Origin: Chryseobacterium scophthalmum
GTDB taxonomy: Bacteria; Bacteroidota; Bacteroidia; Flavobacteriales; Weeksellaceae
Assembly (NCBI RefSeq): GCF_900143185.1
Contig: NZ_FSRQ01000004.1
Span: 1 to 64,000, forward strand
DNA: 64,000 bases
Reading direction: 5' to 3'
Part shown: in pieces, positions 13,478 through 39,370 of the stretch
Position numbering within the stretch: the first letter of the stretch is position 1
How the letters are laid out: each line of letters begins with the position of its first letter
The notes under the pieces: model-generated
Databases searched by the model: none
Told to the model about the DNA's origin: nothing
Seen by the model: the letters and a program-made list of their open reading frames with translations, nothing else
Made by a program: the position numbers and the translations under genes

Positions 13478-13549
13478 ATGGAGACCAGAAACCATTTAAA
13501 ACGGGGCGAAATCCGAAAAGCCACAAGAGTAGGAAAATCAAAATATTAA
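13478..13549 (+). CDS. Putative 23-residue basic peptide
   Basis: A short frame encodes METRNHLKRGEIRKATRVGK plus three residues (SKY), rich in Lys and Arg (8 of 23). It ends two bases before the start codon of the stefin-like gene, so translation could be coupled. Codon composition looks more gene-like than the surrounding A+T-rich sequence. It may be a small protein, a leader peptide that controls the next gene, or chance. Confidence 0.45.
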   Translation: METRNHLKRGEIRKATRVGKSKY

Positions 13550-17410: not shown

Positions 17411-17425
17411 TCTGTTTGTATTTCT

Positions 17426-17505
17426 TGGCTGAGTAGAACGCCTTTGTGAACTTAAAAACTGTTAGCTGTTAAAAAAAACTTTGCACTCTTTGCGCTAAAA
17501 AGCAA
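17426..17505. repeat. Dispersed repeat, copy 1
   Basis: Shares GGCTGAGTAGAACGCCTTTG and a downstream CTTTGC...CTTTGCG pattern with 56031-56105. It lies between two genes of the MoxR operon; the other copy lies between two Ter genes. Confidence 0.6.
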
Positions 17506-17531
17506 AAGCAAGAAAAAATATAAAGAAAAAA

Positions 17532-18665: not shown

Positions 18666-19381
18666 AAACTTTTTGGGCAGAACTTCCAAAAGCTGATGAA
18701 GATTTTCTTGGTGTAATTCGAGACTGGAAAAATGTTCAGATTGCGATGGATGAAGAAGTGATTTGGCTGAAAGGTTTTACTGATGAACAGGCGGCTTCAT
18801 CGGATATTCAGCAATTGCCGAATTTTATTTTGTATGAATTGAGGGATGGACTTTTATTCAGAAAAGATGCATTGGTTCCAAGCAAAAAAATGAGAACCGC
18901 TTTGCTGTGGACTCCAATCGATAAAGCTTTAAAGCTTACTTTTCCTATTTCGAATAATAATTTTTTTGGAATTAATGAAAAGGTTGATGTCAAATTAAAA
19001 TCTAGTGAGGAAGAGCAGCCTGCAATGGCTTTGCTTTGCTCAATTTCGGAAATTAAAGAAGTAATTATTACGACACCAAAATTCAAATTAGAAAAACTGG
19101 ATTGGATTGTTATTAATGATAAAGCATTGTTTATGGGAACTCCATTATTAGGCTTTCCGGGAAAAACTTTTTGGTTAAAAGATGATCATCTTCTACCAAC
19201 AGGTTTTGATTTTGAATTTAAAAATCTGAGTTCTTTATTGCAAAGAAAATATAATGAATGCAACGAAGATTGGCTTTTATGGAGCGAAAACGGAAGTGTT
19301 TTACCAATCAAAAAAGAAGATTTCAGAAAACTATCTGTAAGCTCATTTCGTCTGACTGAAAAATCACAAGAATGGAGTTAA
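18638..19381 (+). CDS. MoxR-ternary system helper protein
   Basis: 247-residue soluble alpha/beta protein. It overlaps the ATPase gene by 28 bases and the next gene by 10. N-terminal WAELPKADEDFLGVIRDWKNVQIAMDEEVIWLKGF and conserved Trp residues near LDWIVINDKALFMGTPLLGFPGKTFW resemble the accessory families that link MoxR and propeller subunits. Assignment rests on operon position plus general look; no catalytic residues are visible. Confidence 0.65.
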   Translation: MAEDSSNSIKTFWAELPKADEDFLGVIRDWKNVQIAMDEEVIWLKGFTDEQAASSDIQQLPNFILYELRDGLLFRKDALVPSKKMRTALLWTPIDKALKLTFPISNNNFFGINEKVDVKLKSSEEEQPAMALLCSISEIKEVIITTPKFKLEKLDWIVINDKALFMGTPLLGFPGKTFWLKDDHLLPTGFDFEFKNLSSLLQRKYNECNEDWLLWSENGSVLPIKKEDFRKLSVSSFRLTEKSQEWS

Positions 19382-21771: not shown

Positions 21772-23404
21772 ACCTTTTCCGAAAAACAATTATCCTAAAA
21801 AAGGACTTTTAATAAAAGGTTCTTCACCATTGACGTGGCTGCATGAAATGGAAATTTTAGGAATTGATTTAAATGAAGTTCGGTCATTTCCAATTCCTTC
21901 CAAAGAACCGAATATTTTGTATGGATGCTTTTTGATTTTTAAAAATTTGGCACCTTCTGAAATTGGCAAGAATTCTTATTTTCAATGTGTTGAAGACAAG
22001 CTTTTCATCCCTGAAAACACTACTTTTTATCCTAAACTCAATCCTGAAGACTGGCAAAACATCAATGCTGATTTTCTGGTGATGCATCCCGATTTCGGTT
22101 TGGTGAAATTGAATGAAGAAATTGATTGGATCTCATTAATTAATCATCCTAAACAATCTGGAGATAAGATTCGAAAACCATCAAACGGAGTAACGATTCC
22201 TCAAGAAATTAAAAGTTTTATGGTGGAAATGGATGATGACCAAGTGATGGAAGCGCTTCAAAAACCACAAACGGAAGAAGAGTGGATGAAAAACCTGCCT
22301 TTTGATATGAAAAAAGTAATGGCAGGAAATAAAAAGGAAATCGAAAAATATTTAAAATATATTGAAAAATATCCTGAAAGAGCTGTAGAATTGGGAGTTC
22401 CACTGGATGTAATGGGAACTTCAAGAGGAGATGGATTTGGTAAATTCAATTTTGGAAACTGGTTTCAAAACTTTTTTAGCGGCGGTGATAATTCTTTAGG
22501 TGAAAACTCAGGTTCTGGGAATTACCGCTGGATCTTTTTTGTTTTTATCATTTTAATTGTAGTTGCGAGAATCGGGTTTCAGTTGACTAAGGATGAAACG
22601 GAGGAACATGTGAATTCCGGGAAAGTTCAACAGCAAAACAAGATCGGAAAAATTTTGGCGTTTAAATCTGGGATTACTGATATCGATATAAAAATTGATT
22701 CTATTTACAGAAAACGAAGAGGGAAATTGATGAGCGATTTTCATGAAGCAACGAAAGAATTTCACGAAAAATCAATGGATGATGTGGTGAAAGATGTTGA
22801 GAAATATAGAATTGATGAAGGAAAAACAAAAGATTCTCTCAAAACGATTTACAATAAAAAAATAGTAAAAGTAATAACAGAAAATACAGAAAAACTACAA
22901 AATAAAATCACAGATTCTCTCAAAAAAGAAGGAAACGGAATACCAGCCGATAAAGGTGTCGTGAAAATGGTTCTCAATAAAAAACAGATTTTGATGGCTG
23001 ATTCTTTAGGGAAACGCTACGGAACTATTGATCCGCCAGTTTCTAAGATGGATGAAAATTCACAGGCTTATCTTGAAGGAAATAAAGGAGAGTCAAGTGA
23101 TTCTGAAAAAGTTTCCGCATCAGAGATTTTTTGGCTGATTGTTTTAATGACTGGAGCTGTAGGATTGTATTCTTTCCTTTTTAAAAAGAAAAAAATACAT
23201 TTCGGTGGCGAGAATGTTCCGATAGGAATCAAAATTTTTCTCATGGTTGTTCTGATTGCTTTATTGAGCTATATTTTTTATCCGATCATCGAAATGTTTG
23301 GCTATAATTGGTTTGTCTGGATATTGATCATTTGTGTAGCTCTTCTTTTGTACAGACTTTTAAGGGAAGATAAAACCATATTAAAATCTGAAGAAAATGA
23401 ATAA
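21755..23404 (+). CDS. Membrane protein of the MoxR-ternary system
   Basis: 549 residues. N-terminal soluble domain (about 1-250, opening MELRIKPFPKNNYPKKGLLIKG) resembles bpX-type domains of these operons. One membrane helix follows at about 260-278 (WIFFVFIILIVVARIGFQL), then a long Lys/Asp/Glu-rich coiled region (about 290-440), and three further helices (about 455-475, 490-508 and 515-535). Overlaps its neighbours by 17 and 8 bases. It could anchor the ternary complex at the membrane. Confidence 0.7.
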   Translation: MELRIKPFPKNNYPKKGLLIKGSSPLTWLHEMEILGIDLNEVRSFPIPSKEPNILYGCFLIFKNLAPSEIGKNSYFQCVEDKLFIPENTTFYPKLNPEDWQNINADFLVMHPDFGLVKLNEEIDWISLINHPKQSGDKIRKPSNGVTIPQEIKSFMVEMDDDQVMEALQKPQTEEEWMKNLPFDMKKVMAGNKKEIEKYLKYIEKYPERAVELGVPLDVMGTSRGDGFGKFNFGNWFQNFFSGGDNSLGENSGSGNYRWIFFVFIILIVVARIGFQLTKDETEEHVNSGKVQQQNKIGKILAFKSGITDIDIKIDSIYRKRRGKLMSDFHEATKEFHEKSMDDVVKDVEKYRIDEGKTKDSLKTIYNKKIVKVITENTEKLQNKITDSLKKEGNGIPADKGVVKMVLNKKQILMADSLGKRYGTIDPPVSKMDENSQAYLEGNKGESSDSEKVSASEIFWLIVLMTGAVGLYSFLFKKKKIHFGGENVPIGIKIFLMVVLIALLSYIFYPIIEMFGYNWFVWILIICVALLLYRLLREDKTILKSEENE

Positions 23405-24413
23405 GCAGAAGTTTATCGATAAGTTTCTGAGAGCACTTGTGGTTTTAGCAATTATTAAAATCATTGCGATTTTTGCTGAGCTCTTTCAGAAAACATTTTG
23501 GAGTGTTATTGGAAATTTGGTGATTTTCATCGTCGTTTTAGTAATTATATTTTTTGTAATCATCGCTCTTGAAAATAAAGAAAAATCTGGAAATTCTTCA
23601 GGAAGAAAAGGTAGCGGAGGAAACTTTTATCTTGAAAATTCTTTGTTCGACAGAATTAGAAACAAATACGAAGAATTAGCCGAAAAATACATTGCTGAAA
23701 AAGATTATACAAGAGCCGCAAAAGTCTATATGAATTTGCTGAATGACAATTATCGTGGCGCAAAAACACTTGAAGATGGCGGTTTGTATAACGAAGCTGC
23801 CGTGGTCTACCTTAAAAAATTAAAAAATAGATCGGAGGCTGCGTCTTGTTTTGAAAAAGCGAAGCAATATCAAAAATCGATTGAACTGTATAAAGAACTC
23901 GAGCAAAAAGAAAAAGTGGGTGATCTTTATATACAAATTAACGATACCAAAAATGCGAATTCTTATTACCAAATGGTTGTTGATGATTATGTAAACAACG
24001 ATCAAATGGTGAAAGCTTCTCTTATTTACCGCAAAAAAATGGATGTTCCGGAAGAAGCTCAGAAAATTCTTTTACAAGGTTGGGAAGAAAATAAAGATGC
24101 TTTTAATTGCTTGAATAACTATTTTGTAAATATCAATACTATTGAAGACCTGAATCATACAATTCAAAATTTATACCTCAAAACTCCTTCTGATAAGAAA
24201 TTAATTTATTTGGAAGCGATGAAACATGAGTTTAATAAAGATTCAAAGCTACAGGAAACAACAAGGAATATCGCTTACGAAATCATTGCCGAAAATATAG
24301 AAAATCATTCTTCCATCATCAATGAACTGAAGCATTTCAATCCAAAAGATGAGGTGATTTTAAAAGATATTTCGAGATACAGAACAGGGAGAAATAAAAT
24401 GTTTAGAAATTAA
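23397..24413 (+). CDS. Membrane-anchored TPR-like protein, last gene of the MoxR-ternary operon
   Basis: 338 residues with one or two N-terminal membrane helices (about 10-58) and a low-complexity Gly/Ser linker. Helical repeats of TPR type follow (YEELAEKYIAEKDYTRAAKVYMNLL, GGLYNEAAVVYLKKLKNR, AKQYQKSIELYKELEQKEKVGDLYIQINDTKNA). TPRs bind partner proteins. It overlaps the preceding gene by 8 bases. Likely a scaffold subunit on the cytoplasmic face. Confidence 0.75.
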   Translation: MNKQKFIDKFLRALVVLAIIKIIAIFAELFQKTFWSVIGNLVIFIVVLVIIFFVIIALENKEKSGNSSGRKGSGGNFYLENSLFDRIRNKYEELAEKYIAEKDYTRAAKVYMNLLNDNYRGAKTLEDGGLYNEAAVVYLKKLKNRSEAASCFEKAKQYQKSIELYKELEQKEKVGDLYIQINDTKNANSYYQMVVDDYVNNDQMVKASLIYRKKMDVPEEAQKILLQGWEENKDAFNCLNNYFVNINTIEDLNHTIQNLYLKTPSDKKLIYLEAMKHEFNKDSKLQETTRNIAYEIIAENIENHSSIINELKHFNPKDEVILKDISRYRTGRNKMFRN

Positions 24414-25258: not shown

Positions 25259-25332
25259 GGTTTCTTTAGCTTATTTGGTAAAGCGTCGGTTTGTGGCACC
25301 GGAGAACAGGGTTCGATCCCCGGAGATACCCA
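25259..25332 (+). tRNA. tRNA-His-like (anticodon GTG), degenerate
   Basis: Anticodon arm TCGGT-TTGTGGC-ACCGG is clear. The acceptor GGTTTCT/AGATACC has a T-T mismatch, the T stem CAGGG/CCCGG has an A-G mismatch, and the U8-A9 spacing is off. No clean G-1:C73 histidine identity pair can be drawn. It may not be a working tRNA. Confidence 0.55.
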
Positions 25333-25337
25333 AAAGT

Positions 25338-25422
25338 GTGAATGAGTGAATGGTGAATTTTGCTTCGCAAGTGAATTTTTAAAAATTGACAAGCAAGGCG
25401 AATTGACGATTGACAATTCACA
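25338..25422. repeat. Array palindrome, copy 1
   Basis: Begins GTGAATGAGTGAATGGTGAA and ends GATTGACAATTCAC; the ends are inverted complements, with TTCGCAAGTGAATTTT and AAAAATTGACAAGC inside. Five related copies separate genes of the tRNA array. Confidence 0.75.
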
Positions 25423-25428
25423 AAAAAT

Positions 25429-25502
25429 AATCTCATAGCTCAATTGGTTGGAGCATCGGTCTGATACGCCGAAGGTTGAAGGTTCGAATCCTTCTGGGAT
25501 TA
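25429..25502 (+). tRNA. tRNA-Ile (GAT)
   Basis: Acceptor AATCTCA/TGGGATT (one G-T), D arm TAGCTCAATTGGTTGGAGCA, anticodon loop CTGATAC, T arm GAAGG-TTCGAAT-CCTTC. CCA is not fully encoded. The body outside the anticodon arm is nearly the same as in the next two genes. Confidence 0.85.
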
Positions 25503-25510
25503 CAAAACAT

Positions 25511-25583
25511 AATCTTATAGCCAATTGGATAGAGCGTTGGTTTACGACACCAAAGGTTGAAGGTTCGAACCCTTCTAGGATTA
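25511..25583 (+). tRNA. tRNA-Arg (ACG), one-base deletion in D arm
   Basis: Acceptor AATCTTA/TAGGATT, anticodon loop TTACGAC, T arm GAAGG-TTCGAAC-CCTTC. The D arm reads TAGCCAATTGG where siblings have TAGCTCAATTGG, so one base is missing. Same body as the Ile and Lys genes beside it. Confidence 0.75.
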
Positions 25584-25590
25584 CAAATAG

Positions 25591-25664
25591 AATCTCATAG
25601 CTCAAATGGTTAGAGCACCGGTCTTTTAAACCGGGGGTTGAAAGTTCAAATCTTTCTGCGGTTA
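25591..25664 (+). tRNA. tRNA-Lys (TTT)
   Basis: Acceptor AATCTCA/TGCGGTT has one T-C mismatch, anticodon loop CTTTTAA, T arm GAAAG-TTCAAAT-CTTTC with A in place of the usual G of TTCG. Shares its body with the neighbouring Ile and Arg genes. Confidence 0.75.
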
Positions 25665-25678
25665 CAAAAAAGAGAAAA

Positions 25679-25752
25679 GTGAATGGTGAATTTTGTTTCA
25701 CAAGTGAACCTAAAATTGACGAGCAAAGCGGATTGACAATTCACGATTCACA
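25679..25752. repeat. Array palindrome, copy 2
   Basis: GTGAATGGTGAATTTTG at the left and GATTGACAATTCACGATTCAC at the right, same family as 25338-25422. Confidence 0.7.
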
Positions 25753-25758
25753 TAAAAA

Positions 25759-25829
25759 GGTCTATTGAGGTAATGGTAACCTGCCTGACTGTCGCTCAGG
25801 CACTGCGAGTTCGATTCTCGCATAGACCG
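25759..25829 (+). tRNA. tRNA-Asp (GTC)
   Basis: Perfect acceptor GGTCTAT/ATAGACC, D arm AGGTAATGGTAACCT, anticodon arm CCTGA-CTGTCGC-TCAGG, T arm GCGAG-TTCGATT-CTCGC. A further isolated hairpin with the same CTGTC loop (TCCGA...TCGGA, about 25853-25871) follows and may be a remnant of another copy. Confidence 0.88.
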
Positions 25830-25898
25830 CAAAGATTCACGGGAAATTTCGGATCCGACTGTCTCTCGGAGAAGATTTTTGAAGTGAACCTGCAAAAC

Positions 25899-25969
25899 TG
25901 GAAAGATAACGGTGGTTGTTTACCCGTCTTGGACGCGGGAGGTCGCAAGTTCGAATCTTGCTTTCCAGA
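25899..25969 (+). tRNA. tRNA-Pro (TGG), unusual D arm
   Basis: Perfect acceptor CTGGAAA/TTTCCAG, anticodon arm CCCGT-CTTGGAC-GCGGG, T arm GCAAG-TTCGAAT-CTTGC. Positions 8-9 and the D arm (TAACGGTGGTTGTTTA) depart from the standard TA-GCTC pattern. Confidence 0.78.
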
Positions 25970-25975
25970 CAATTT

Positions 25976-26048
25976 GCTCCATTCGTCTAATGGTTTAGGA
26001 CGGCTGCCTTTCGAGCAGTAGATAAGAGTTCGATTCTCTTATGGAGTA
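25976..26048 (+). tRNA. tRNA-Glu (TTC), copy 1
   Basis: Acceptor GCTCCAT/ATGGAGT (G-T at 1-72), anticodon loop CTTTCGA, T arm AAGAG-TTCGATT-CTCTT. A close copy is at 27055-27127. Confidence 0.85.
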
Positions 26049-26054
26049 CAATAA

Positions 26055-26136
26055 TGTGAATGGTCAATAGTGAATTTCACTTCGTAAGTGAATTTGAAAA
26101 TTGATAGCAAAGGGAATTGATAATTGGTAGTTCACA
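26055..26136. repeat. Array palindrome, copy 3
   Basis: GTGAATGGTCAATAGTGAATT at the left, AATTGGTAGTTCAC at the right, same family as 25338-25422 with more divergence. Confidence 0.65.
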
Positions 26137-26141
26137 TAAAA

Positions 26142-26213
26142 GATTTCGTAGCTCAATGGTAGAGCGCTGGTCTGTTAAACCAGAAGTTGAAAGTTCGAAT
26201 CTTTCCGGGATCG
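26142..26213 (+). tRNA. tRNA-Asn (GTT)
   Basis: Acceptor GATTTCG/CGGGATC (two G-T), D arm TAGCTCAATGGTAGAGC, anticodon arm CTGGT-CTGTTAA-ACCAG, T arm GAAAG-TTCGAAT-CTTTC. Confidence 0.85.
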
Positions 26214-26248
26214 CAAATAACTAAATGTTAATTGTTTCAAAAGAGAGA

Positions 26249-26319
26249 AAGAAAAAGTTTGTCGAGAGCAGAAGATCTTTACGCCAAAAAAACACAAAAA
26301 TATAGACAGGCTTTTTCTT
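26249..26319 (+). ncRNA. Three-copy stem-loop element, copy 1
   Basis: AAGAAAAAGTTTGTC pairs with GACAGGCTTTTTCTT (15 bp with two G-T). The loop begins GAGAGCAGAAGATCTTTACG. Two relatives with the same TTTGTC...GACAG stem and a loop core like GCAGAAGTTCTTA follow in the array. Unknown RNA element, possibly transcribed between tRNAs. Confidence 0.6.
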
Positions 26320-26393
26320 AACTCAAAAAATGAAAATTAAAAGATGGATGAAGAAAGTTGGAAGTTTTAAACATAATATAAATTTTTAGATAA

Positions 26394-26455
26394 AATAAAG
26401 TTTGTCAAAGCGCAGAAGTTCTTATATCAAACATAAAATTAAGACAGGCTTTATT
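26394..26455 (+). ncRNA. Three-copy stem-loop element, copy 2
   Basis: AATAAAGTTTGTC pairs with GACAGGCTTTATT (13 bp with two G-T); loop AAAGCGCAGAAGTTCTTATA and on. Conserved with copy 3 in the loop, which suggests selection on sequence as well as on pairing. Confidence 0.6.
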
Positions 26456-26536
26456 TTTTCAATTAGAAGCTAGATGTTAGAAACGTGATATTTCTAAAAA
26501 CTATCAACTAGAAACCAACAACTAGTTAAAAAAAAC

Positions 26537-26618
26537 GATGGTTCGCCGAAGTGGAAGAGTCGGGGCGGTCTGCAAAACCGTTGCGTAAGCTGAGTGGGTT
26601 TGAATCCCATAACCATCT
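26537..26618 (+). tRNA. tRNA-Cys (GCA) on a Tyr-like long-variable-arm body
   Basis: Acceptor GATGGTT/AACCATC, anticodon loop CTGCAAA, long variable region TTGCGTAAGCTGAG. The D arm CGCCGAAGTGG...AGAGTCGGGGC is nearly that of the Tyr gene at 26799, and the anticodon differs from GTA by one base, so it looks like an anticodon-switched tRNA-Tyr. Confidence 0.75.
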
Positions 26619-26644
26619 CAAATAACTAAAATGAGATTAGTTCC

Positions 26645-26720
26645 GAAGAAAAAGAAAAGTTTGTCGAGCGTAGAAGTTCTTACATCAAACAAAAAATAAA
26701 AGACAGACTTTGTTTTCTTC
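26645..26720 (+). ncRNA. Three-copy stem-loop element, copy 3
   Basis: AAAGTTTGTC pairs with GACAGACTTT, extended by GAAGAAAA/TTTTCTTC; loop GAGCGTAGAAGTTCTTACAT and on. Same family as 26249 and 26394. Confidence 0.6.
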
Positions 26721-26798
26721 AAATGAGAAATTAGATGTTAGAAATTAGAAGTTAGAATGAAAATCATTCATCTTCTATCAATTATCATCTATAAAAAA

Positions 26799-26885
26799 GG
26801 AAGTACGCCGAAGTTGGAGAGTCGGGGCAGACTGTAAATCTGTTGCTTCATTGCTGAGTAGGTTCGAATCCTACTACTTCCACCA
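26799..26885 (+). tRNA. tRNA-Tyr (GTA), CCA encoded
   Basis: Acceptor GGAAGTA/TACTTCC, anticodon loop CTGTAAA, long variable arm TTGCTTCATTGCTGAG, T arm GTAGG-TTCGAAT-CCTAC, then ACCA. It is the only array member whose CCA is clearly encoded. Confidence 0.85.
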
Positions 26886-26958
26886 ACCGCTTATAATGTA
26901 AAGGAAGCATGCAGGAAATGTACTCTTGTTGTTCAGGTTCGACTCCTGGTTAGTGGTC
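26886..26958 (+). tRNA. tRNA-Thr-like (TGT), abnormal anticodon loop
   Basis: Acceptor ACCGCTT/TAGTGGT with one mismatch and one G-T; anticodon arm CAGGA-AATGTAC-TCTTG. Position 33 is A instead of the near-universal U, which should impair decoding. The 3' half from TCTTGTTGTTCAGG matches the Gln gene at 27523. Confidence 0.55.
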
Positions 26959-26965
26959 AAAAAAA

Positions 26966-27046
26966 GTGAAATGTGGATACTGAATTTTACTACGCAAGTG
27001 AATTTAAAAATTGACTGCAAAGCAAATTGAAGATTCACCATTCACA
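26966..27046. repeat. Array palindrome, copy 4
   Basis: GTGAAATGTGGATACTGAATT at the left and GATTCACCATTCAC at the right, same family as 25338-25422. Confidence 0.65.
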
Positions 27047-27054
27047 AGAAAAAT

Positions 27055-27127
27055 GCTCTATTCGTCTAACGGTTCAGGACGCCTGCCTTTCGAGCAGAAA
27101 ACAAGGGTTCGATTCCCTTATAGAGTA
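27055..27127 (+). tRNA. tRNA-Glu (TTC), copy 2
   Basis: Acceptor GCTCTAT/ATAGAGT, D arm TCGTCTAACGGTTCAGGACG, anticodon loop CTTTCGA, T arm AAGGG-TTCGATT-CCCTT. Close copy of 25976-26048. Confidence 0.85.
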
Positions 27128-27209
27128 CAAAATATGAGTAATGGGTAATGGGCAATGAGTAATTATTGCCAGCATAAATTATTAAGGATGAATTTATATA
27201 TAAAAACTT

Positions 27210-27283
27210 GCGGGAATGGCGGAACTGGTATACGCACTTGATTTAGGCTCAAGATATTGAGGGTTCGACTCCCTTTTTCCGTA
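27210..27283 (+). tRNA. tRNA-Leu-like (TAG) without long variable arm
   Basis: Acceptor GCGGGAA/TTTCCGT, anticodon arm CTTGA-TTTAGGC-TCAAG, T loop TTCGACT. The variable region is only about five bases, while bacterial tRNA-Leu normally has a long arm, so aminoacylation is doubtful. Confidence 0.65.
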
Positions 27284-27364
27284 CAAAAGCATAATTGATA
27301 AATCATCAATAATAAATGATAAAAGCAGCAATGGTACCATTTATAACTTATCATTTATAAACTT

Positions 27365-27437
27365 GGAAGAGTGGTGTAGCAGGTCTGCACGTTAGTCTGA
27401 AAAACTAAAGGTACAGGTTCGATTCCTGTCTGTTCCG
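27365..27437 (+). tRNA. tRNA-Phe (GAA)
   Basis: Acceptor GGAAGAG/CTGTTCC with one G-G mismatch, anticodon arm TTAGT-CTGAAAA-ACTAA, T arm ACAGG-TTCGATT-CCTGT. Confidence 0.8.
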
Positions 27438-27522
27438 CAGAAATATAGTTGATAAGTCATAAATGATCAATCCAGAAAATAAAATCAATTATCATTCATC
27501 ATCTATCAATTATAATTAAAAC

Positions 27523-27595
27523 TGATTCATAGTGTAATTGGTCAGCACACAAGACTTTGACTCTTGTTGTTCAGGTTCGAGTCCTGATGAATCAA
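27523..27595 (+). tRNA. tRNA-Gln (TTG)
   Basis: Perfect acceptor TGATTCA/TGAATCA, D arm TAGTGTAATTGGTCAGCAC, anticodon arm CAAGA-CTTTGAC-TCTTG, T arm TCAGG-TTCGAGT-CCTGA. Last member of the array, 130 bp before the RNA-repair operon. Confidence 0.87.
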
Positions 27596-27602
27596 CAAAA
27601 AA

Positions 27603-31904: not shown

Positions 31905-31940
31905 TACGCAAAAAGAATGCGCAATAAGCTTTTTACTTTG
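31905..31940 (+). promoter_or_regulatory. Shared stress-type promoter, slipin copy
   Basis: TACGCA-AAAAGAA-TGCGCA (31905-31923) followed after ten bases by TACTTTG (31934-31940). Two other copies with the same half-site spacing (7) and the same distance from the second half-site to the end of TTTG (17) precede Ro60 and the Y RNA run. No TTG is found at -33. Confidence 0.75.
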
Positions 31941-32119
31941 CATTATCAAAAGAACAAAACACTAAAATTTTGAAAATGAATTTTAGTCAAAATATCAGAC
32001 AGGTCTTGTTGGGTGTTTCTGTATATCACCATTGCAGAATATTTTGTTGAGAAACATGATATTATTCTGTTCAACTTGATCTGAAGGTTTCAGAGGTTTT
32101 CCAAAAAATTTCACACGGC

Positions 32120-32189
32120 TCTATAGGTTGAAGGTTCGAGTCCTTCTATTTCCAAAATGGGAATATAGTTCAAGTGGTAGAACAATAGA
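32120..32189 (+). ncRNA. Permuted tRNA-like element X1
   Basis: Order: TCTAT, T arm GAAGG-TTCGAGT-CCTTC, acceptor 3' strand TATTTCC, short linker, acceptor 5' strand GGGAATA, D arm TAGTTCAAGTGGTAGAACA, then ATAGA pairing with the opening TCTAT. The two tRNA halves are thus in reversed order and the closing stem sits where an anticodon arm would be. A run of T follows. Confidence 0.65.
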
Positions 32190-32200
32190 TTTTTTTTTGC

Positions 32201-32332
32201 GAGGGTTCGAATCCTTCTCTCGTTTTGAACGGGATAGCTCAGTTGGTTAGAGCACTACACTTTTAATGTAGTTTGAAAATAGACTCAAAATCTATTTTTT
32301 ATTAGAGTTTGAATATCTCGTTAAAAATATTC
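32201..32332 (+). ncRNA. tRNA-like element X2 (permuted half plus tRNA-Lys-like TTT)
   Basis: T arm GAGGG-TTCGAAT-CCTTC and acceptor strand TCTCGTT precede AACGGGA, D arm TAGCTCAGTTGGTTAGAGC and an anticodon-like arm CTACA-CTTTTAA-TGTAG. A second ATCTCGTT at about 32325-32332 could also pair with AACGGGA, after a hairpin insert AAAATAGA/TCTATTTT. Either fold is possible; neither is a normal tRNA. Confidence 0.55.
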
Positions 32333-32471
32333 TTCATGGAAAGTCTGGGATTTTTTCGGTTGTTGAATCAACATTTTGAAAAAGCCTGTAAGAAAAGTTT
32401 TTTTCTGAAAATGAAATTCAGTTGATGAATACATGATTATTGGACAAGTTTTTCTAAAAATGACGGTTTTC

Positions 32472-34407: not shown

Positions 34408-34790
34408 TGTTTTAATTTTAATTAAGACAAAGCTAGAAAAGAGATTGCCAAAAATTTAAAATTGTTGATTCCTTTAGATAAAATGAATGATAGACAAATT
34501 GTATTTGGTAGATAGTTTATAGTTGTTTGTTTCCTTAGTCAAGTAAAGCGTAATGAATTTATTTAAACACAAGTCCCACAAATATTTTCACAAATTCCAC
34601 AAGCAAAAATTATTAGTGTCATTCGTGTAAAAATTCGTGATATTGGTGTTTAAAATCAAAAAAAATAAAAACTTTTTCACAAAAAAAAATCACTACGCAA
34701 AAACACTGCGCAATACCACTCTTACTTTGCATAAGAAATCAGTGAGGAAGTGATAATCCTCCAAAAATGTTTAACTAAAAAACAGTAACC
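34408..34790. other. Intergenic region upstream of Ro60
   Basis: A+T-rich. Contains the shared promoter at 34694-34729 and a short hairpin GAGGA...TCCTC in the 50-base leader (34744-34762) that could affect Ro60 translation. No gene or tRNA-like module is seen. Confidence 0.55.
34694..34729 (+). promoter_or_regulatory. Shared stress-type promoter, Ro60 copy
   Basis: TACGCA-AAAACAC-TGCGCA (34694-34712), ten bases, TACTTTG (34723-34729). Spacing is identical to the slipin copy. Expected transcript start near 34736-34741, about 50 bases before the Ro60 ATG. Confidence 0.78.
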
Positions 34791-36308
34791 ATGAAATTTA
34801 ATTTTTTAAGAAAATCAAATAACGTAGTAATGAATTACGAAGGTGGAAAAGCTTACAAAATGACACCTGCAGAAGAACTATATAGTGCTGTTGTTACAAC
34901 AGGATTATCAAACGCAACTTATGAAAAAGGAAATGAAAGATTGGCGAGAATCCAGTTTCTGATTCAAAAAAACAACCCAGATTTCGTTGCGAAATTGGCA
35001 GTTTATGCGAGAAAAGAGATGTATTTGCGTTCAATTCCTTTGGTTTTGACGACCGAATTGGCAAAACAAACTTCGGGTACAGACTTGGTAAGCAAAACTG
35101 TTGATGGAGTAATTCAAAGAGCTGATGAGATCACAGAATTACTGGCGTACTACCAGTTGGCAAACGAAAGAACAGAAACTAAAAAATTGAATAAACTTTC
35201 AAAGCAAATCCAAAAAGGTTTGGTGAAATCTTTCAACAAATTTGATGAATATCAATTTGCAAAGTATAACAGAAAGGGAGAAGTGACTTTGAAGGATGCT
35301 TTGTTCTTGGTTCACCCAAAAGCAAAAGATGAAGATCAGCAGACAATTTTCAACAAGATCGTCAACGACTCCTTGGAAACTCCTTATACTTGGGAAGTTG
35401 AACTTTCAATGTTGGGTCAGACAAAATTTACCGATGACGCTGAAAGAACATTAGCTTTCAAAAATAAATGGGAAGAATTGATTTTCAGCAACAAATTGGG
35501 TTATATGGCAACATTGCGAAACCTTAGAAATATTTTAGAAGCCAAAGTTTCTTCTGATGCGATGTACAAAGTTTGCAACTATTTGTCAGATGAAAAAGCG
35601 GTAAGAAACTCAAAACAATTACCATTCAGATTTTTGGCGGCGTATAGAGAATTGAAAACAATCGATTCGCCTTATTTGTCATCGATCCTAGAAGCATTGG
35701 AAGATGCGGTGATGGTGAGTGCAAAAAATATTAAAGGGTTTGGCTTCGAAACTTCGGTAGTGATCGCGGCAGACGTTTCGGGTTCGATGCAGCAACCAAT
35801 TTCTCCGAGATCTAAAGTTTTGTTGTACGATATCGGTCTGTTAATGTCGATGATGTTGCAGTCGCAGTGCAAAAACGTGATCACTGGTATGTTTGGTGAC
35901 CGTTGGAAAAGAGTTCCGATGCCGAAGAACGGTATCCTGAGAAATGTAGATGCATTCTACAAAAGAGAAGGTGAAGTGGGTTATTCCACAAACGGTCATC
36001 TTGTGCTTGAAGACTTGATCAACAAGCGAGAAATTGTAGACAAAATTATGTTGTTCACCGATACTCAAATGTGGGATACCGGTGGATTTACCAATGCTTT
36101 CGAAAACTCTTGGAGTCGATACAAAAAGATCAATCCGAATGCAAAATTGTATCTGTTTGATTTGGCAGGTTACGGAAAACCACCTTTGGATGTCAGAAAA
36201 AATGATGTCTATCTTATCGCAGGTTGGTCCGACAAGATTTTCGATGTACTGAATGCTTTGGAAGACAAAAAATCTGCCGTAGAAATGATTAAAAAAGTAG
36301 TGCTGTAA
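34791..36308 (+). CDS. rsr: Ro60/Rsr homologue (TROVE-vWA RNA-binding protein)
   Basis: 505 residues. N-terminal TROVE domain of helical repeats (about 15-320: MTPAEELYSAVVTTGL, NPDFVAKLAVYARKEMYLRSIPLVLTTELA, GYMATLRNLRNILEAKV) and C-terminal vWA domain with an intact MIDAS ADVSGSM (Asp328) and MLFTDTQMWDTGG. Ro60 forms a ring that binds Y RNAs on the outside and misfolded RNA ends in the centre; bacterial Rsr works with RNA maturation and decay after stress. The ten Y-like RNAs downstream are its expected partners. No RtcB or PNPase gene is nearby. Confidence 0.95.
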   Translation: MKFNFLRKSNNVVMNYEGGKAYKMTPAEELYSAVVTTGLSNATYEKGNERLARIQFLIQKNNPDFVAKLAVYARKEMYLRSIPLVLTTELAKQTSGTDLVSKTVDGVIQRADEITELLAYYQLANERTETKKLNKLSKQIQKGLVKSFNKFDEYQFAKYNRKGEVTLKDALFLVHPKAKDEDQQTIFNKIVNDSLETPYTWEVELSMLGQTKFTDDAERTLAFKNKWEELIFSNKLGYMATLRNLRNILEAKVSSDAMYKVCNYLSDEKAVRNSKQLPFRFLAAYRELKTIDSPYLSSILEALEDAVMVSAKNIKGFGFETSVVIAADVSGSMQQPISPRSKVLLYDIGLLMSMMLQSQCKNVITGMFGDRWKRVPMPKNGILRNVDAFYKREGEVGYSTNGHLVLEDLINKREIVDKIMLFTDTQMWDTGGFTNAFENSWSRYKKINPNAKLYLFDLAGYGKPPLDVRKNDVYLIAGWSDKIFDVLNALEDKKSAVEMIKKVVL

Positions 36309-36321
36309 AAGGCACTACTTT
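36294..36321 (+). terminator. Terminator overlapping the Ro60 stop codon
   Basis: AAAGTAGTGC pairs with GCACTACTTT (10 bp); the stop codon lies in the loop. The T-tail is short, so some read-through is possible. Confidence 0.75.
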
Positions 36322-36383
36322 AATTAGAATAAATTATAAGTGATAAATGTTGAGTGATTTTATACTGAATATTACTGTAATTT

Positions 36384-36475
36384 AGGAGCTTGATCCCGCT
36401 TTCCACTATATCTTTTTCTCCAACGCTTTTTTCAAGCCATTTCAGAAAAAGGATGCCGTTGCAATCGGGGCTAGG
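36384..36475 (+). repeat. Flavobacterial interspersed repeat, copy 2
   Basis: Reads GGAGCTTGATCCCGCTTTCC, then ACTATATCTTTTTCTCC, then a stem TTTCTCCAACGCTTTTTTC..., and ends GGATGCCGTTGCAATCGGGG plus CTAGG. Opposite orientation of 431-541. Confidence 0.75.
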
Positions 36476-36499
36476 AATAAAAATTTAAAAAATAAACTT

Positions 36500-37144
36500 A
36501 TGAATGAACAAGAAGTATTAAACTATTCAGATGAAGAAGTGATAAAAAGAATAATTAAATTAACTGAGGGATTAGCTAACTTTTGGAAAAGTTCTCATGG
36601 TTGGGCACCTATAAAGGCTTCTGATTTAATGTCAAAATCTAGACTAGATTGGCAAGCATCTTTAGCTAGAACTCTTAATTTATTTAGATGTGATAAGGCA
36701 CAAGAAGAAGATGGGGCACTTATACTTGCTTGGGCAACATTAGGTAGCTTAGTAGAAGGAACATTAAAATTATTTTTATCTGTTTGGTATAATGATTATG
36801 AGCACACAACAACTAAAACATCATTGAAAGGATTTGAAGATACAAAAGGTGATTTAATAGAACCTGATATTTTGATGCTTGAAAAGCTAAGGCTATTCTT
36901 TGATAAAGAAATTTATCCTGCAGATATACAAAAGATATGGGATGAAGAAGGAAGACTCAATATTATTGAATGGATTCAGAAAATACAATATAAGCGTAAT
37001 GCAATTCATGCATATAAGCATAGAGATATTGGAAGTTTTAAAGAATTTTTTAACGAGTTGAGAAACTATTTGATTTTTATGAGACGTTTGACCGATACTT
37101 TTCCCTATCCTGATGATATGATGTATAAACCTACTGAAATTTAG
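36500..37144 (+). CDS. Unknown helical protein, HEPN-like candidate
   Basis: 214 residues, all-helical, no signal or membrane segment. WIQKIQYKRNAIHAYKHRDIG resembles the R-N-x(2-4)-H motif of HEPN-domain proteins, many of which are RNases or RNA-binding partners in conflict systems; the spacing RNAIH is one residue shorter than the usual catalytic RxxxxH. It sits between Ro60 and the Y RNAs on the same strand, so a link to that ribonucleoprotein is attractive but unproven. Confidence 0.5.
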   Translation: MNEQEVLNYSDEEVIKRIIKLTEGLANFWKSSHGWAPIKASDLMSKSRLDWQASLARTLNLFRCDKAQEEDGALILAWATLGSLVEGTLKLFLSVWYNDYEHTTTKTSLKGFEDTKGDLIEPDILMLEKLRLFFDKEIYPADIQKIWDEEGRLNIIEWIQKIQYKRNAIHAYKHRDIGSFKEFFNELRNYLIFMRRLTDTFPYPDDMMYKPTEI

Positions 37145-37147
37145 AGG

Positions 37148-37224
37148 TTAATCGATGCCATAAGAAAAGAAATCCTTCGACTTCCAATTGAAACAGAATC
37201 TTTTCGCTATATCGCTCGGTTTAA
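37148..37224 (+). ncRNA. Y RNA-like unit Y1
   Basis: Lower stem TTAATCGA/TCGGTTTAA (imperfect), 5' bulge TGCCATAA, upper stem GAAAAGA/TCTTTTC, 3' side ending ATCGC. The loop carries CCTTCGACTTCC but no tRNA module. Confidence 0.68.
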
Positions 37225-37227
37225 ACT

Positions 37228-37309
37228 AACCAATGTCGTCCATAAGAGTTCCATCGTCAAACTTATAATTTGAATAACATTCAAAACTCTTATAACTTGT
37301 TATTTGGTT
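37228..37309 (+). ncRNA. Y RNA-like unit Y2
   Basis: Lower stem AACCAA/TTGGTT, 5' bulge TGTCGTCC, upper stem ATAAGAGTT/AACTCTTAT (9 bp), 3' side AACTTGTTAT, then a T-run that could end the transcript. Minimal unit without tRNA module. Confidence 0.75.
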
Positions 37310-37331
37310 TTTAATTTAAAATAATTTCAAC

Positions 37332-37367
37332 TGCGTAAAAAGAATACGCACCAACGCAATAATTTTG
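37332..37367 (+). promoter_or_regulatory. Shared stress-type promoter, Y RNA copy
   Basis: TGCGTA-AAAAGAA-TACGCA (37332-37350, a perfect inverted repeat here) with TAATTTTG ending at 37367, again 17 bases past the second half-site. Unit Y3 begins 12 bases downstream, where transcription should start. Confidence 0.78.
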
Positions 37368-37378
37368 CAATAACAAAT

Positions 37379-37505
37379 AAGTAAGTGTCGTAAAACAGAA
37401 TTTCTTCGTTTTCAGGGTGGCGATGTAGGTTCGATTCCTACTCCTTGTGATAGTATAATGGTAATACTTCACCAGTAAGTCTCTGTTTGATTTTTTACCT
37501 TACTT
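37379..37505 (+). ncRNA. Y RNA-like unit Y3, with T and D arms
   Basis: Lower stem AAGTAAG/CTTACTT, 5' bulge TGTCGTAA, upper stem AACAGA/TCTGTT, 3' side TGATTTTTTAC. The insert holds T arm GTAGG-TTCGATT-CCTAC followed by a Gly-like D arm AGTATAATGGTAATACT, without a clear acceptor stem. Its 5' end coincides with the predicted transcription start. Confidence 0.8.
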
Positions 37506-37511
37506 TAAAAC

Positions 37512-37583
37512 AACCGATGCCGTAAAAAAGAGTTCCTTCTACTTTACATTGAAATCAAAACTCTTTTTATCAATTGCTCGGTT
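37512..37583 (+). ncRNA. Y RNA-like unit Y4, minimal
   Basis: Lower stem AACCGA/TCGGTT, 5' bulge TGCCGTAA, upper stem AAAAGAGTT/AACTCTTTT (9 bp), 3' side ATCAATTGC. Loop of about 24 bases starting CCTTCTACTTT; no tRNA module. Confidence 0.8.
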
Positions 37584-37599
37584 TTAAAAAATATAAACG

Positions 37600-37741
37600 A
37601 ATCAAGTGTCGTTTTAGGATCATACTTCGATATCTGATCTTTGGGTCGCAGGTTCGAGCCCTGCCTTTTCCTTAAAAACGGAAGAGTAGCTCAGTCGGTA
37701 GAGCAAAAGCACTGAAAGATTCTGCAATTATTACCTTGATT
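37600..37741 (+). ncRNA. Y RNA-like unit Y5, with full permuted tRNA module
   Basis: Lower stem AATCAAG/CTTGATT, 5' bulge TGTCGTTT, upper stem AGGATC/GATTCT, then TACTTCG. Module: T arm GCAGG-TTCGAGC-CCTGC, acceptor CTTTTCC, linker, GGAAGAG, D arm TAGCTCAGTCGGTAGAGC. The acceptor strands pair over 7 bp with 3' strand first. Confidence 0.85.
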
Positions 37742-37748
37742 TAATAAT

Positions 37749-37848
37749 AAGAGTGTCGTAGAAAAGACCTACTTCGTGGTTTAATTTTGGTTCGAGTCCA
37801 AACGATCTTGAAAAAGATTGGGAGGTCTTTCAATAGGTTACCTCTTTT
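37749..37848 (+). ncRNA. Y RNA-like unit Y6, T arm only
   Basis: Lower stem AAGAG/CTCTT, 5' bulge TGTCGTAG, upper stem AAAGACCT/AGGTCTTT (8 bp), then ACTTCG. The insert has a T arm TTTGG-TTCGAGT-CCAAA and a hairpin GATCTTGAAAAAGATT in place of the acceptor and D arms. Confidence 0.78.
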
Positions 37849-37865
37849 AAATTTAAAAATAAAAT

Positions 37866-37990
37866 ATCAAGTGTCGTAGTATAGAAATACTTCGTTCCAG
37901 GCTTAAGATGCAGGTTCGAATCCTGTCTGTAAAATAGTAGTCTAATGGTAGGACGTAAGCGTAAAGTGTCTGTACGAAATTTACCTTGAT
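37866..37990 (+). ncRNA. Y RNA-like unit Y7
   Basis: Lower stem ATCAAG/CTTGAT, 5' bulge TGTCGTAG, upper stem TATAGA/TCTGTA, then TACTTCG. Module: T arm GCAGG-TTCGAAT-CCTGT then D arm TAGTCTAATGGTAGGAC, with no long acceptor stem. Confidence 0.8.
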
Positions 37991-37996
37991 AAAAAT

Positions 37997-38113
37997 AAAG
38001 AGTGCCGTTAGAGAAAACTTACTTCGGTTGATCTTATGATATTGGTTCGACTCCAGAAAATAGGTCTTAATGACTTATTATTTCGTGGTTTTCTCGACTT
38101 TCGCCTCTTTTTT
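37997..38113 (+). ncRNA. Y RNA-like unit Y8, run-ending
   Basis: Lower stem AAAGAG/CTCTTT, 5' bulge TGCCGTTA, upper stem GAGAAAAC/GTTTTCTC (8 bp), 3' side GACTTTCGC, then TTACTTCG after the upper stem and a T-loop-like TTGG-TTCGACT-CCAG. The lower stem runs into TTTTTT, which can act as terminator of the Y3-Y8 run. Confidence 0.8.
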
Positions 38114-38131
38114 AATTAAAAAATAAATTAC

Positions 38132-38965
38132 ATGGAAATACCAGTAAATTTTACAGATTTTTTATATTGGCTAAAAGAACGAACAGAAAGATTTTGGAGC
38201 GAAAATACTTGCCAGAAAGGATTTTATGGAGCAAAATGGCAGCCTCTCAGTGAAAAACAAATTGATTTTATTGAATTGAAATACTCCGTCAGATTTACAT
38301 CAGAACACCGTGAATTCTTGAAGATCCTCCATGCTATTGATAAAAAAGAAATTGTGGAATACGAAGATGAGGGTGAAATAATTACCGAACAATGTACTTT
38401 TTTCTACAATTGGTTGGAAGATGAAAAAGAGATTACGAAGGTTTTGAAAGAACCTTATCAATGGATGTTTGATGATATTGATTCTGTGAATAAAGTTTGG
38501 CTAAAATCATGGGGAATTAAACCAAAATCTGCTGAAAAAAGAAAAAAGATTTTTGACAAATGGTTTTCTAATGTACCAAGTTTATTACCGTTGACGGGTA
38601 GTGTATTTGTTGTAAGTGATGAAAACCTTGAGTGTAAACCAATTCTTTCAGTTAGAGGTTCTGATATTGTGACAATGGGATGGGATTTTAGAACGGGTTT
38701 ATTAAATGAGATTAGAAATCATCTTGATATTTATATTGAAGTTTTTGATGAAGAAGACCAAATGTTTTATCCTGAATTATTGCCGGAAGTGCAAGAGATT
38801 TTTGATCAGAATTTTAAATATGATGAAACAAAAGACGTTCCTTATCTTAAAGAAATGATGCTATATTGGTCCTCTGGATGGTCAAGCTTTGACATGACTT
38901 ATCATCCTGAAAATGCAAAAGTTCACCCAATTGTAAAAACATATATAGCTGAAGAACAAGTTTAA
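38132..38965 (+). CDS. SMI1/KNR4 (SUKH) family protein
   Basis: 277 residues. WQPLSEKQIDFIELKYSVRFTSEHREFLKILHAIDKK and SLLPLTGSVFVVSDENLECKPILSV ... SDIVTMGWDF match the SUKH/SMI1-KNR4 fold, best known as immunity proteins against nuclease and deaminase toxins. No toxin gene is adjacent. It lies between Y RNA units Y8 and Y9 on the same strand, with unit Y9 only about seven bases after the stop codon, so it may share their transcript. Confidence 0.75.
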   Translation: MEIPVNFTDFLYWLKERTERFWSENTCQKGFYGAKWQPLSEKQIDFIELKYSVRFTSEHREFLKILHAIDKKEIVEYEDEGEIITEQCTFFYNWLEDEKEITKVLKEPYQWMFDDIDSVNKVWLKSWGIKPKSAEKRKKIFDKWFSNVPSLLPLTGSVFVVSDENLECKPILSVRGSDIVTMGWDFRTGLLNEIRNHLDIYIEVFDEEDQMFYPELLPEVQEIFDQNFKYDETKDVPYLKEMMLYWSSGWSSFDMTYHPENAKVHPIVKTYIAEEQV

Positions 38966-38971
38966 AAACAA

Positions 38972-39127
38972 AAACAAGTGTCGTAGAATAGTGTTACTTC
39001 GATTATCACGACGGGGACGCAGGTTCGAGTCCTGTCTTTTCCACAATTGAAACACAAAAATTAGATAGGAAAAGTAGCTCAGTTGGTTAGAGCACGACAC
39101 ACTTTTTGATTGACTGTTGCCTTGTTT
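38972..39127 (+). ncRNA. Y RNA-like unit Y9, with full permuted tRNA module
   Basis: Lower stem AAACAAG/CTTGTTT, 5' bulge TGTCGTAG, short upper stem AGTGT/ACACT, then TACTTCG. Module: T arm GCAGG-TTCGAGT-CCTGT, acceptor CTTTTCC (39036-39042), 25-base linker, GGAAAAG (39068-39074, 7 bp perfect), D arm TAGCTCAGTTGGTTAGAGCA. 3' side ends TTGC. Confidence 0.85.
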
Positions 39128-39132
39128 GAAAA

Positions 39133-39269
39133 ATAAAAGTGTCGTAGAGAAAAGATACTTCGTCTCACTCATGGGGAGGAATAGCGAAGTCGGTAACTCC
39201 GGCAAGGCTATCCGGTTCGACTCCGGCTTGACGTGCCCCACTTTCTTTTCTCGATTTTTTACCTTTTAT
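39133..39269 (+). ncRNA. Y RNA-like unit Y10
   Basis: Lower stem ATAAAAG/CTTTTAT, 5' bulge TGTCGTAG, upper stem AGAAAAG/CTTTTCT, then TACTTCG, 3' side CGATTTTTTAC. The insert here keeps normal order: GGGG, D-like arm, T arm CCGG-TTCGACT-CCGG and CCCC, unlike Y5 and Y9. Confidence 0.78.
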
Positions 39270-39298
39270 CCTTTCCGAAATTCGGAAGGGATTTTTTA
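39270..39298 (+). terminator. Terminator of the Y9-Y10 run
   Basis: CCTTTCCGAA pairs with TTCGGAAGGG, followed by TTTTTT. Confidence 0.85.
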
Positions 39299-39370
39299 TT
39301 GAAAGAAATGATGTTTTGTGTTTTTTTTAATCATAAGTTTGTGAGATAAAAAACTTAAATTATAATAACT

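Follow-up and report, generated by a model that had tools for sequence, protein, structure and literature searches.

A 64,000-nucleotide (nt) stretch of Chryseobacterium scophthalmum DNA (contig NZ_FSRQ01000004.1, positions 1 to 64,000; the whole stretch is referred to as the window) carries an array of ten short structured units at positions 37150 to 39269, 3′ of a gene for Ro60 (also named Rsr). The ten units are real, and the best reading of them is as Y RNAs arranged in a new way, in which one stem of the Ro60 type would be combined with a swappable top. We consider it probable that these predicted Y RNAs bind Ro60 through a shared bulged stem and act as interchangeable adaptors with different baits.

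An initial annotation, made by a model from the sequence letters, had proposed ten units beside Ro60, and this count was borne out. A two-stem scan, for which the motif had to be relaxed in the case of Y1 (TGCCA), recovered all ten, all on the plus strand, versus a mean of 0.06 units (maximum, 1) in 300 dinucleotide shuffles of positions 36309 to 39300. With the strict motif TG[CT]CG, nine units were returned together with one chance match inside a gene at position 18809. When arms were swapped between units, the mean score fell from 37.8 (10 own combinations) to 7.9 (90 swapped combinations, 4 of which still scored ≥32). Over 81 sequences, the scan gave 13.6 matches per 10 kb in the 5 kb 3′ of Ro60 on the same strand, compared with control densities of 0.48 per 10 kb upstream of Ro60 and 0.30 per 10 kb on the opposite strand.

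Shared stem, variable tops, and covariation

The common stem consists of a lower helix of 5 to 9 bp, a bulged U, two GY/RC pairs, CGUA, an upper helix, a (U/A)CUUCG-like element, the top, and the 3′ strands. What had been annotated as a 5′ bulge is unpaired only in part: the T is indeed bulged, but the GY that follows pairs with the RC of the 3′ TTAC, TTGC, or TCGC element, so that GU-AC versus GC-GC is a compensatory change. The single architecture initially assigned to all ten units holds for the stem but not above it, where three units have no top, two have a T arm only, four have reversed tRNA halves, and one resembles the Y RNA of Deinococcus.

The units are 72 to 156 nt long. Those consisting of the stem only are Y1 (37150 to 37221; 72 nt; scan score, 35), which has the TGCCA variant, Y2 (37228 to 37309; 82 nt; score, 37), and Y4 (37512 to 37583; 72 nt; score, 43). 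Only a T arm is present in Y8 (37994 to 38113; 120 nt; score, 41) and in Y6 (37749 to 37846; 98 nt; score, 37), the latter with a second hairpin and without a D arm. Reversed tRNA halves as in YrlA (T arm, acceptor 3′ strand, loop, acceptor 5′ strand, D arm) are found in Y3 (37379 to 37505; 127 nt; score, 37; class perm_weak), Y5 (37599 to 37742; 144 nt; score, 37), Y7 (37865 to 37991; 127 nt; score, 36), and Y9 (38972 to 39127; 156 nt; score, 34). The YrlA order of T arm, closed acceptor, and D arm inside the stem is thus found in Y5 and Y9, where the acceptor is good, and with a weak acceptor in Y3 and Y7. The top of Y10 (39133 to 39269; 137 nt; score, 41) has an acceptor-like GGGG/CCCC stem and two nested hairpins, followed by a T arm. 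Seven of the ten units have a T arm or more, so that some predicted Y RNAs of this species have a tRNA-like domain. From Y1 to Y10, the gaps between units are 6, 69, 6, 15, 6, 18, 2, 858, and 5 nt; most spacings are of a few bases, but the array is interrupted by an open reading frame (ORF) at 38132 to 38965 and by a promoter-like element between Y2 and Y3.

Matches to the Rfam YrlA family (RF02553) were 32.2 bits for Y5 (E = 2e-4), 31.8 bits for Y9, and 21.3 bits for Y7, below the gathering score of 69. Y10 reached 24.2 bits (E = 0.3) with the Deinococcus Y RNA family (RF01053), for which the gathering score is 80, and because of this it is said here to resemble that family rather than to belong to it. 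No complete tRNA cloverleaf with an anticodon arm was called by ARAGORN in 37148 to 39269. The Y5 module is 84% identical over 70 bases to a stretch of Vibrio phages that one record annotates as tRNA-Asn followed by tRNA-Phe. Since the reversed order of the module is the order found at the junction of two tandem tRNA genes, the module may have arisen from such a junction. We also considered the stem-only units as copies of an anticodon arm and found this idea unsupported, as 67 of 122 short units lack any hairpin of 5 bp and 7 nt and the units are interrelated; a hairpin of this size with T at loop position 2 and a purine at position 6 is present in 38 of the 122 (mononucleotide shuffles, 2.7%).

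The stems of the ten units had been noted to differ in sequence while still pairing, and covariation in relatives had been set as one of the tests. We took 80 loci with a Ro60 relative from genome contigs; the order of orthologous units is kept across these relatives. Each alignment combined the window unit with part of the relatives' units (21 of 56 for Y10, 20 of 60 for Y9, 19 of 23 for Y4, and 18 of 29 for Y6), and all four units covary, in 22, 21, 20, and 19 sequences, respectively. Paired cells made up 94.9% (Y10), 99.4% (Y9), 94.3% (Y4), and 96.1% (Y6) of the alignments, compared with 33 to 65% in slid controls, with the percentages for the lower and upper stems inflated because the scan that supplied the relatives' units itself selects for pairing. 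Double changes were present in 20 of 36 pairs in Y10, 10 of 24 in Y9, 6 of 14 in Y4, and 9 of 27 in Y6, counts that were equaled in none of 500 shuffles for Y10, Y9, and Y4 and in 1 of 500 for Y6. Further pair types for Y10 were equaled in 10 of 500 shuffles. The inner tRNA-like helices, which the scan does not use, also covary, with double changes in 5 pairs of Y10, 7 of Y9, and 5 of Y6.

Y units and Ro60 across Bacteroidota

Two models were used in related genomes: R1, a model of Y10, and R2, a model of our own that matches Y9 at 159 bits. Among 148 genomes of the family, 20 carry a TROVE gene and 14 have an R1 match; R1 matched 13 of the 20 genomes with TROVE versus 1 of the 128 without it, and in 13 of the 14 R1-positive genomes, TROVE lies on the same contig within ~4 kb. 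Over 39 sources, R2 gave 205 matches, none on the minus strand, with 185 downstream of Ro60 and the remaining 20 in the upstream tRNA-like RNA or in tRNA genes. Taken together, the stem, its covariation, the conserved position 3′ of Ro60, the weak Rfam matches, and the co-occurrence with Ro60 uphold the earlier description of the units as Y RNA-like and linked to Ro60.

Ten units beside one Ro60 gene had been expected to be exceptional, and this did not hold. The number is high but ordinary here, because 66 Chryseobacterium-type loci have between 2 and 11 units (median, 7); 11 Flavobacterium loci have 3 to 6. These counts were made after removal of overlaps and of weak unmatched matches, with three truncated loci (L004, L030, and L045) excluded, and they include a few false matches, among them two long ones (L053 and L068) that are located far past the array and resemble coding sequence; units longer than 185 nt are missed. 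Gaps of ≤25 nt separate units in 287 of 452 cases. Twelve gaps of 120 to 400 nt in the arrays of relatives were inspected and gave no two-stem match; by eye, the gap of ~350 nt contains a short reading frame.

Across the phylum, TROVE is carried by 28 of 395 Bacteroidota genomes. We searched 25 TROVE loci from 24 genomes outside the family with R1 and R2, using our own count of nonoverlapping matches. Three to six units were present 3′ of Ro60 on the same strand in 17 of these loci (L111 to L124 and L127 to L129), one unit was present in L126, partial or upstream matches were present in L125, L131, L132, and L133, and no unit was found with R1 and R2 in L130, L134, and L135. In four loci (L125, L133, L107, and L108), model matches lie upstream, not downstream, of a divergent TROVE gene.

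The arrays hold 104 ORFs, 99 of them on the array strand, and the interleaved ORFs form 15 families. ORFs ending ≤30 nt from a unit account for 20 of 99 in other loci, so tight spacing is not general. Among the interleaved ORFs of relatives are a DUF6584 protein, a DUF4145 protein with a weak HEPN match, and a weak SUKH match.

R2 matches of ~228 nt in relatives revealed a further unit type, absent from the window, that resembles 23S rRNA. It was present in 14 loci (L007, L013, L015, L017, L018, L020, L021, L022, L026, L027, L037, L055, L061, and L069; for example, L017:13837-14064), always behind the Y motif and, in 13 of the 14, upstream of a Y9-type unit. The L017 insert CGTAAATATAACGGTCCTAAGGTAGCGTAATTC is identical at 31 of 33 bases to the 23S rRNA of the window's own genome (E = 6e-8), and the 23S match had E values from 3e-6 to 6e-8 in the 4 of 14 units compared. 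We take the matching stretch to be helix 69 with the joint to helix 71. The rest of the insert follows 23S rRNA weakly (in the four units, 3, 14, 4, and 5 of 500 shuffles were as good). In an alignment of the 14 units, 97.3% of cells are paired. Double changes affect 8 of 43 pairs, a count reached in 11 of 500 shuffles; the covariation score was reached in none of the 500, and the number of further pair types in 487. When the 14 loci are mapped on a Ro60 tree of 77 rows, parsimony calls for 7 or more changes, of which well-supported branches force at least 3, and for this reason the 23S-like unit appears to have been gained and lost repeatedly.

The exact pattern of the 23S-like unit was found in none of the 148 family genomes, a result of little weight, since the pattern is stricter than its targets (most have A, T, or a deletion in place of C), and the unit had no plasmid match. 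For other unit types as rRNA copies, a BLAST search of 531 inserts against the rRNA contig gave nothing consistent; the matches were mostly to two tRNA genes in that contig, plus 15 scattered ones with E values up to 0.05. Fifteen loci (for example, L007:13003) contain an orphan Y unit type of ~130 nt, which has conserved inner hairpins and matches none of the RNAs compared.

Regulatory elements and genomic neighborhood

A 19-nt inverted repeat, TGCGYAAAAAGAATRCGCA, which resembles an operator, occurs in three copies in the 64-kb window at ≤3 mismatches (0.07 expected). One lies before Ro60 (34694 to 34712, plus strand, 3 mismatches), one lies between Y2 and Y3 (37332 to 37350, 0 mismatches) and is combined with a TAATTTTG box (the whole element spanning 37332 to 37366, plus strand), and one lies before a tRNA-like RNA ahead of a Band-7 gene (31905 to 31923, up to 3 mismatches). 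Of 64 loci of relatives, 51 have the repeat ≤300 nt before Ro60 and 60 have it in the array region (98 matches in 255 kb), compared with 12 matches elsewhere on that strand (1.09 Mb) and none on the other strand (1.36 Mb). The sequence TAnnTTTG, presumably the Bacteroidota promoter box, follows 8 to 10 nt after the repeat in 98 of 161 matches (at exactly 9 nt in 90) and is absent in 63. A terminator-like hairpin with a T run (39268 to 39292, plus strand; 11 pairs, 5 of them GC) stands after Y10. These elements suggest a shared regulator for the tRNA-like RNA, Ro60, and the Y array, with at least one promoter inside the array, and Y3 to Y10 would be processed from a precursor. A single transcript of Ro60 and all ten Y units had also been considered and was dropped because the array has its own promoter-like element between Y2 and Y3.

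The Ro60 gene (34791 to 36308, plus strand) encodes 505 amino acids (aa) with TROVE (PF05731, 99.4 bits) and von Willebrand factor A (vWA; PF25045, 22.1 bits, under the cutoff of 27.7) domains. Residues 14 to 494 align with the solved TROVE proteins 9l5y and 9kop (E = 2e-27), the nearest relative is that of Chryseobacterium sp. BGARF1 (97% identity), and no second TROVE gene was found in the genome. The two ORFs that accompany the array, both on the plus strand, have no Pfam match. One (36500 to 37144; 214 aa) ends 5 nt before Y1; the other, between Y8 and Y9 (38132 to 38965; 277 aa), lies 18 nt from Y8 and 6 nt from Y9, and its relative in L062 has a subthreshold SUKH match (SMI1_KNR4, 19.3 bits; cutoff, 25.4). 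A Flavo-1 RNA (RF01705, 66.2 bits) is found antisense between Ro60 and the first ORF (36388 to 36476, minus strand) and also 3′ of Ro60 in L007, L021, and L022.

About 10 kb upstream of the Y array is an array of 15 tRNA genes (25259 to 27596). Each shares 63 to 71% identity with the core tRNA that has the same anticodon, making this a divergent second set; the spacers are hairpin rich, with three copies of AAAGTTTGTC...GACAGRCTTT. Of 42 relatives' loci scanned, 16 have at least four tRNA genes in the 10 kb preceding Ro60. The same window contains, upstream of Ro60, a MoxR-vWA-bpX conflict system (16772 to 24413), which adjoins Ro60 and the tRNA genes in L023, a compact locus with the gene order bpX, tRNAs, RNaseH-like, Ro60, Ys, and which is also seen next to Ro60 in L031 (where the comparison covers Ro60). 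In passages of the bpX paper (PMC7159879), the word TROVE appears only in its everyday sense, and tRNA is named only in the title of a reference.

Other genes upstream of Ro60 encode RNaseH-like, R2K ATP-grasp, RNase T, cREC, DinB_2, an RLIG1-like RNA ligase, and a phosphoesterase, followed by Band-7; downstream are genes for an SPFH-like protein, a DUF3686 AAA protein, and TerD. The structured tRNA-like RNA before the Band-7 gene (31960 to 32345) has two modules in the order T arm, acceptor, D arm and is kept in relatives with Band-7 nearby. We assume that it may be the Band-7 tRNA-like RNA of Burroughs and Aravind 2016. Two RtcB genes are present elsewhere in the genome and none in the window. 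At G000:C1:1681083-1682051, an RtcB gene is followed by a 108-nt match to the tRNA model (48.8 bits), and a DUF805 RNA motif (RF03081, 76.4 bits) is present at 13473 to 13539 of the window.

Interpretation and comparison with known systems

Passages of three papers jointly describe that Ro60/Rsr contacts Y RNA via its lower stem, that the Deinococcus Y RNA tethers PNPase, that Salmonella YrlA is modified by TruB and DusA, and that Rsr takes part in 23S maturation and in the decay of rRNA (PMC8394870, PMC4726728, and PMC7790460). It is because of these passages on Ro60/Rsr, YrlA, and the Deinococcus Y RNA that we infer a shared dock with different baits. One common stem would dock each unit on the neighboring Ro60, Ro60 and the Y RNAs would be induced together, and Y3 to Y10 would be excised from a precursor. 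The tRNA-like tops might then recruit, or be modified by, tRNA-binding proteins, in the manner of Salmonella YrlA with TruB and DusA; alternatively, they might tether a nuclease such as PNPase, in the manner of the Deinococcus Y RNA. A PNPase gene is present in the genome, PNPase being the partner in RYPER, the Ro60-Y-PNPase machine. The stem-only units, having no bait, could serve as lids of the Ro60 ring. Under stress or attack, the resulting mixture of Ro60-Y particles would be directed to different kinds of damaged RNA, with tRNAs and rRNA as the most plausible targets.

We advance more tentatively, and with somewhat less confidence than in the adaptor reading, a broader proposal for the Bacteroidota. 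The array may be a coregulated, evolvable set of cassettes whose tops are baits copied from the translation machinery (tRNA halves, T arm, a Deinococcus-type domain, and helix 69 of 23S rRNA in 14 related species), with units being acquired, lost, and exchanged on a constant docking stem, so that Ro60 would be aimed in turn at tRNA- and ribosome-handling factors.

Several results weigh against reading the units as Ro60-bound adaptors, in addition to the inflated pairing percentages given above. At gathering score, Rfam recognizes no Y RNA among the units. Further pair types for Y4 were not above shuffles (157 of 500), and one upper-stem pair of Y6 is broken in 11 of 19 sequences. Seven of the 20 TROVE genomes had no R1 match, an absence that is soft because the search was strictly filtered, with 21 candidates scored per genome; the scan finds four units in one of these (G054) and one in another (G016), and no clear unit by scan in the other five (G046, G051, G062, G074, and G084), where TROVE is divergent (28 to 29% identical). 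Conversely, G111 retains two units (L105:5284-5510) directly 3′ of a bpX operon and beside tRNA-Arg(cct), without Ro60; they are likely a deletion remnant. A comparison of Y3, Y5, Y7, and Y9 with 39 distinct core and 15 array tRNAs gave no clear single match, and the idea that each top is a copy of one host tRNA was rejected. Finally, matches to sigma-70-type promoters were not above chance (14 versus 16.3).

The main rival to the adaptor reading, which we consider unlikely, is that the Y RNAs are Ro60-bound decoys, whose tRNA-like tops would absorb tRNA-cutting nucleases or shield tRNA-binding enzymes in an attack, beside back-up tRNAs and an RNA ligase. The copy number fits a sponge, and the locus holds 15 divergent array tRNAs, an RNA-ligase-like gene, a phosphoesterase, and an exonuclease. 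In passages of their paper, Hughes and colleagues raise YrlA as a possible competitive inhibitor of anticodon nuclease, but YrlA is also reported there not to be a substrate of that nuclease (PMC7790460). The modules have no anticodon arm, 3 of the 10 units have no tRNA-like part, and the 23S-like unit of relatives is at odds with a tRNA sponge.

Far less probable is that the units are never separate RNAs and act in cis as processing or stability elements for the interleaved ORFs. The position of ORFs between units (5, 6, and 18 nt away in the window) and the orientation of 99 of 104 array ORFs along the array strand are as expected of such elements, but most units have no adjoining ORF, only 20 of 99 ORFs end ≤30 nt from a unit, and the tRNA arms and their order persist where ORFs differ or are absent, the link being to Ro60. 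We give almost no credence to a decayed tRNA gene cluster, that is, dead tRNA fragments beside the tRNA array. Recognizable tRNA arms, a tRNA array 10 kb upstream, and an Rfam tRNA model match covering Y5 to Y6 (25.1 bits, below the cutoff) recall such a cluster; compensatory changes across species contradict it, as do the shared non-tRNA stem, the conserved unit order, and the units without any tRNA part.

An array of this kind points to bacterial Ro60 as a platform whose RNA adaptors can be exchanged. Y RNAs have so far been studied singly or in pairs, and one Ro60 with one stem and ten natural variants offers a direct way to ask about the role of the tops. The 23S-like unit in relatives may point to a connection with rRNA, and a role of Ro60 on rRNA is among those reported in Deinococcus in passages of PMC4726728. 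With a divergent tRNA set, an RNA ligase, Band-7 with a tRNA-like RNA, and bpX at the same locus, a role in surviving RNA damage becomes testable.

Parts of this picture may have been described before. Chen 2014 is said to report probable Y RNAs next to Ro60 in over 250 species, with at least one Y RNA per species having a tRNA-like domain, and because of that coverage some of these arrays may already be in its listing. Burroughs and Aravind 2016 reportedly describe Y RNAs associated with TROVE and a tRNA-like RNA associated with Band-7, and both combinations are present in the window; Y RNA arrays and an rRNA-like Y RNA are not known to be part of that account. A search of the open literature, with Chen 2014, Wang 2018, Sim and Wolin 2018 and 2020, and Burroughs and Aravind 2016 outside it, gave no paper on bacterial Y RNA arrays or on an rRNA-like Y RNA.

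Within the same phylum, Ro60-Y RNA particles were recovered from Bacteroides thetaiotaomicron (Greiling 2018, as related in part of PMC11277228, where neither the number nor the structure of the Y RNAs is stated). In passages of PMC7790460, the RNA repair operon of Salmonella responds to tRNA fragments, and rsr-yrlBA-rtcBA is likewise a Ro60 gene with more than one Y RNA, RNA repair genes, and a tie to damaged tRNA. The window differs from it in having ten Y RNAs instead of two and an RLIG1-like ligase, a tRNA array, Band-7, and bpX, with no RtcB. Compared with Salmonella YrlA (RF02553), the reversed units share paired ends with a Ro60 stem, the order of T arm, closed acceptor, and D arm, and the position beside Ro60, but they score 21 to 32 bits against a gathering score of 69, have a different lower-stem sequence with a TGYCGUA motif, and number four, mixed with other kinds, rather than one. 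Y10 shares with the Y RNA of Deinococcus radiodurans (RF01053) the order of an acceptor-like GGGG/CCCC stem, hairpins, and a T arm, CCGGTTCGA..CCGG; unlike that RNA, it stands last in an array with YrlA-like units, so that YrlA-like and Deinococcus-like Y RNAs coexist in one genome.

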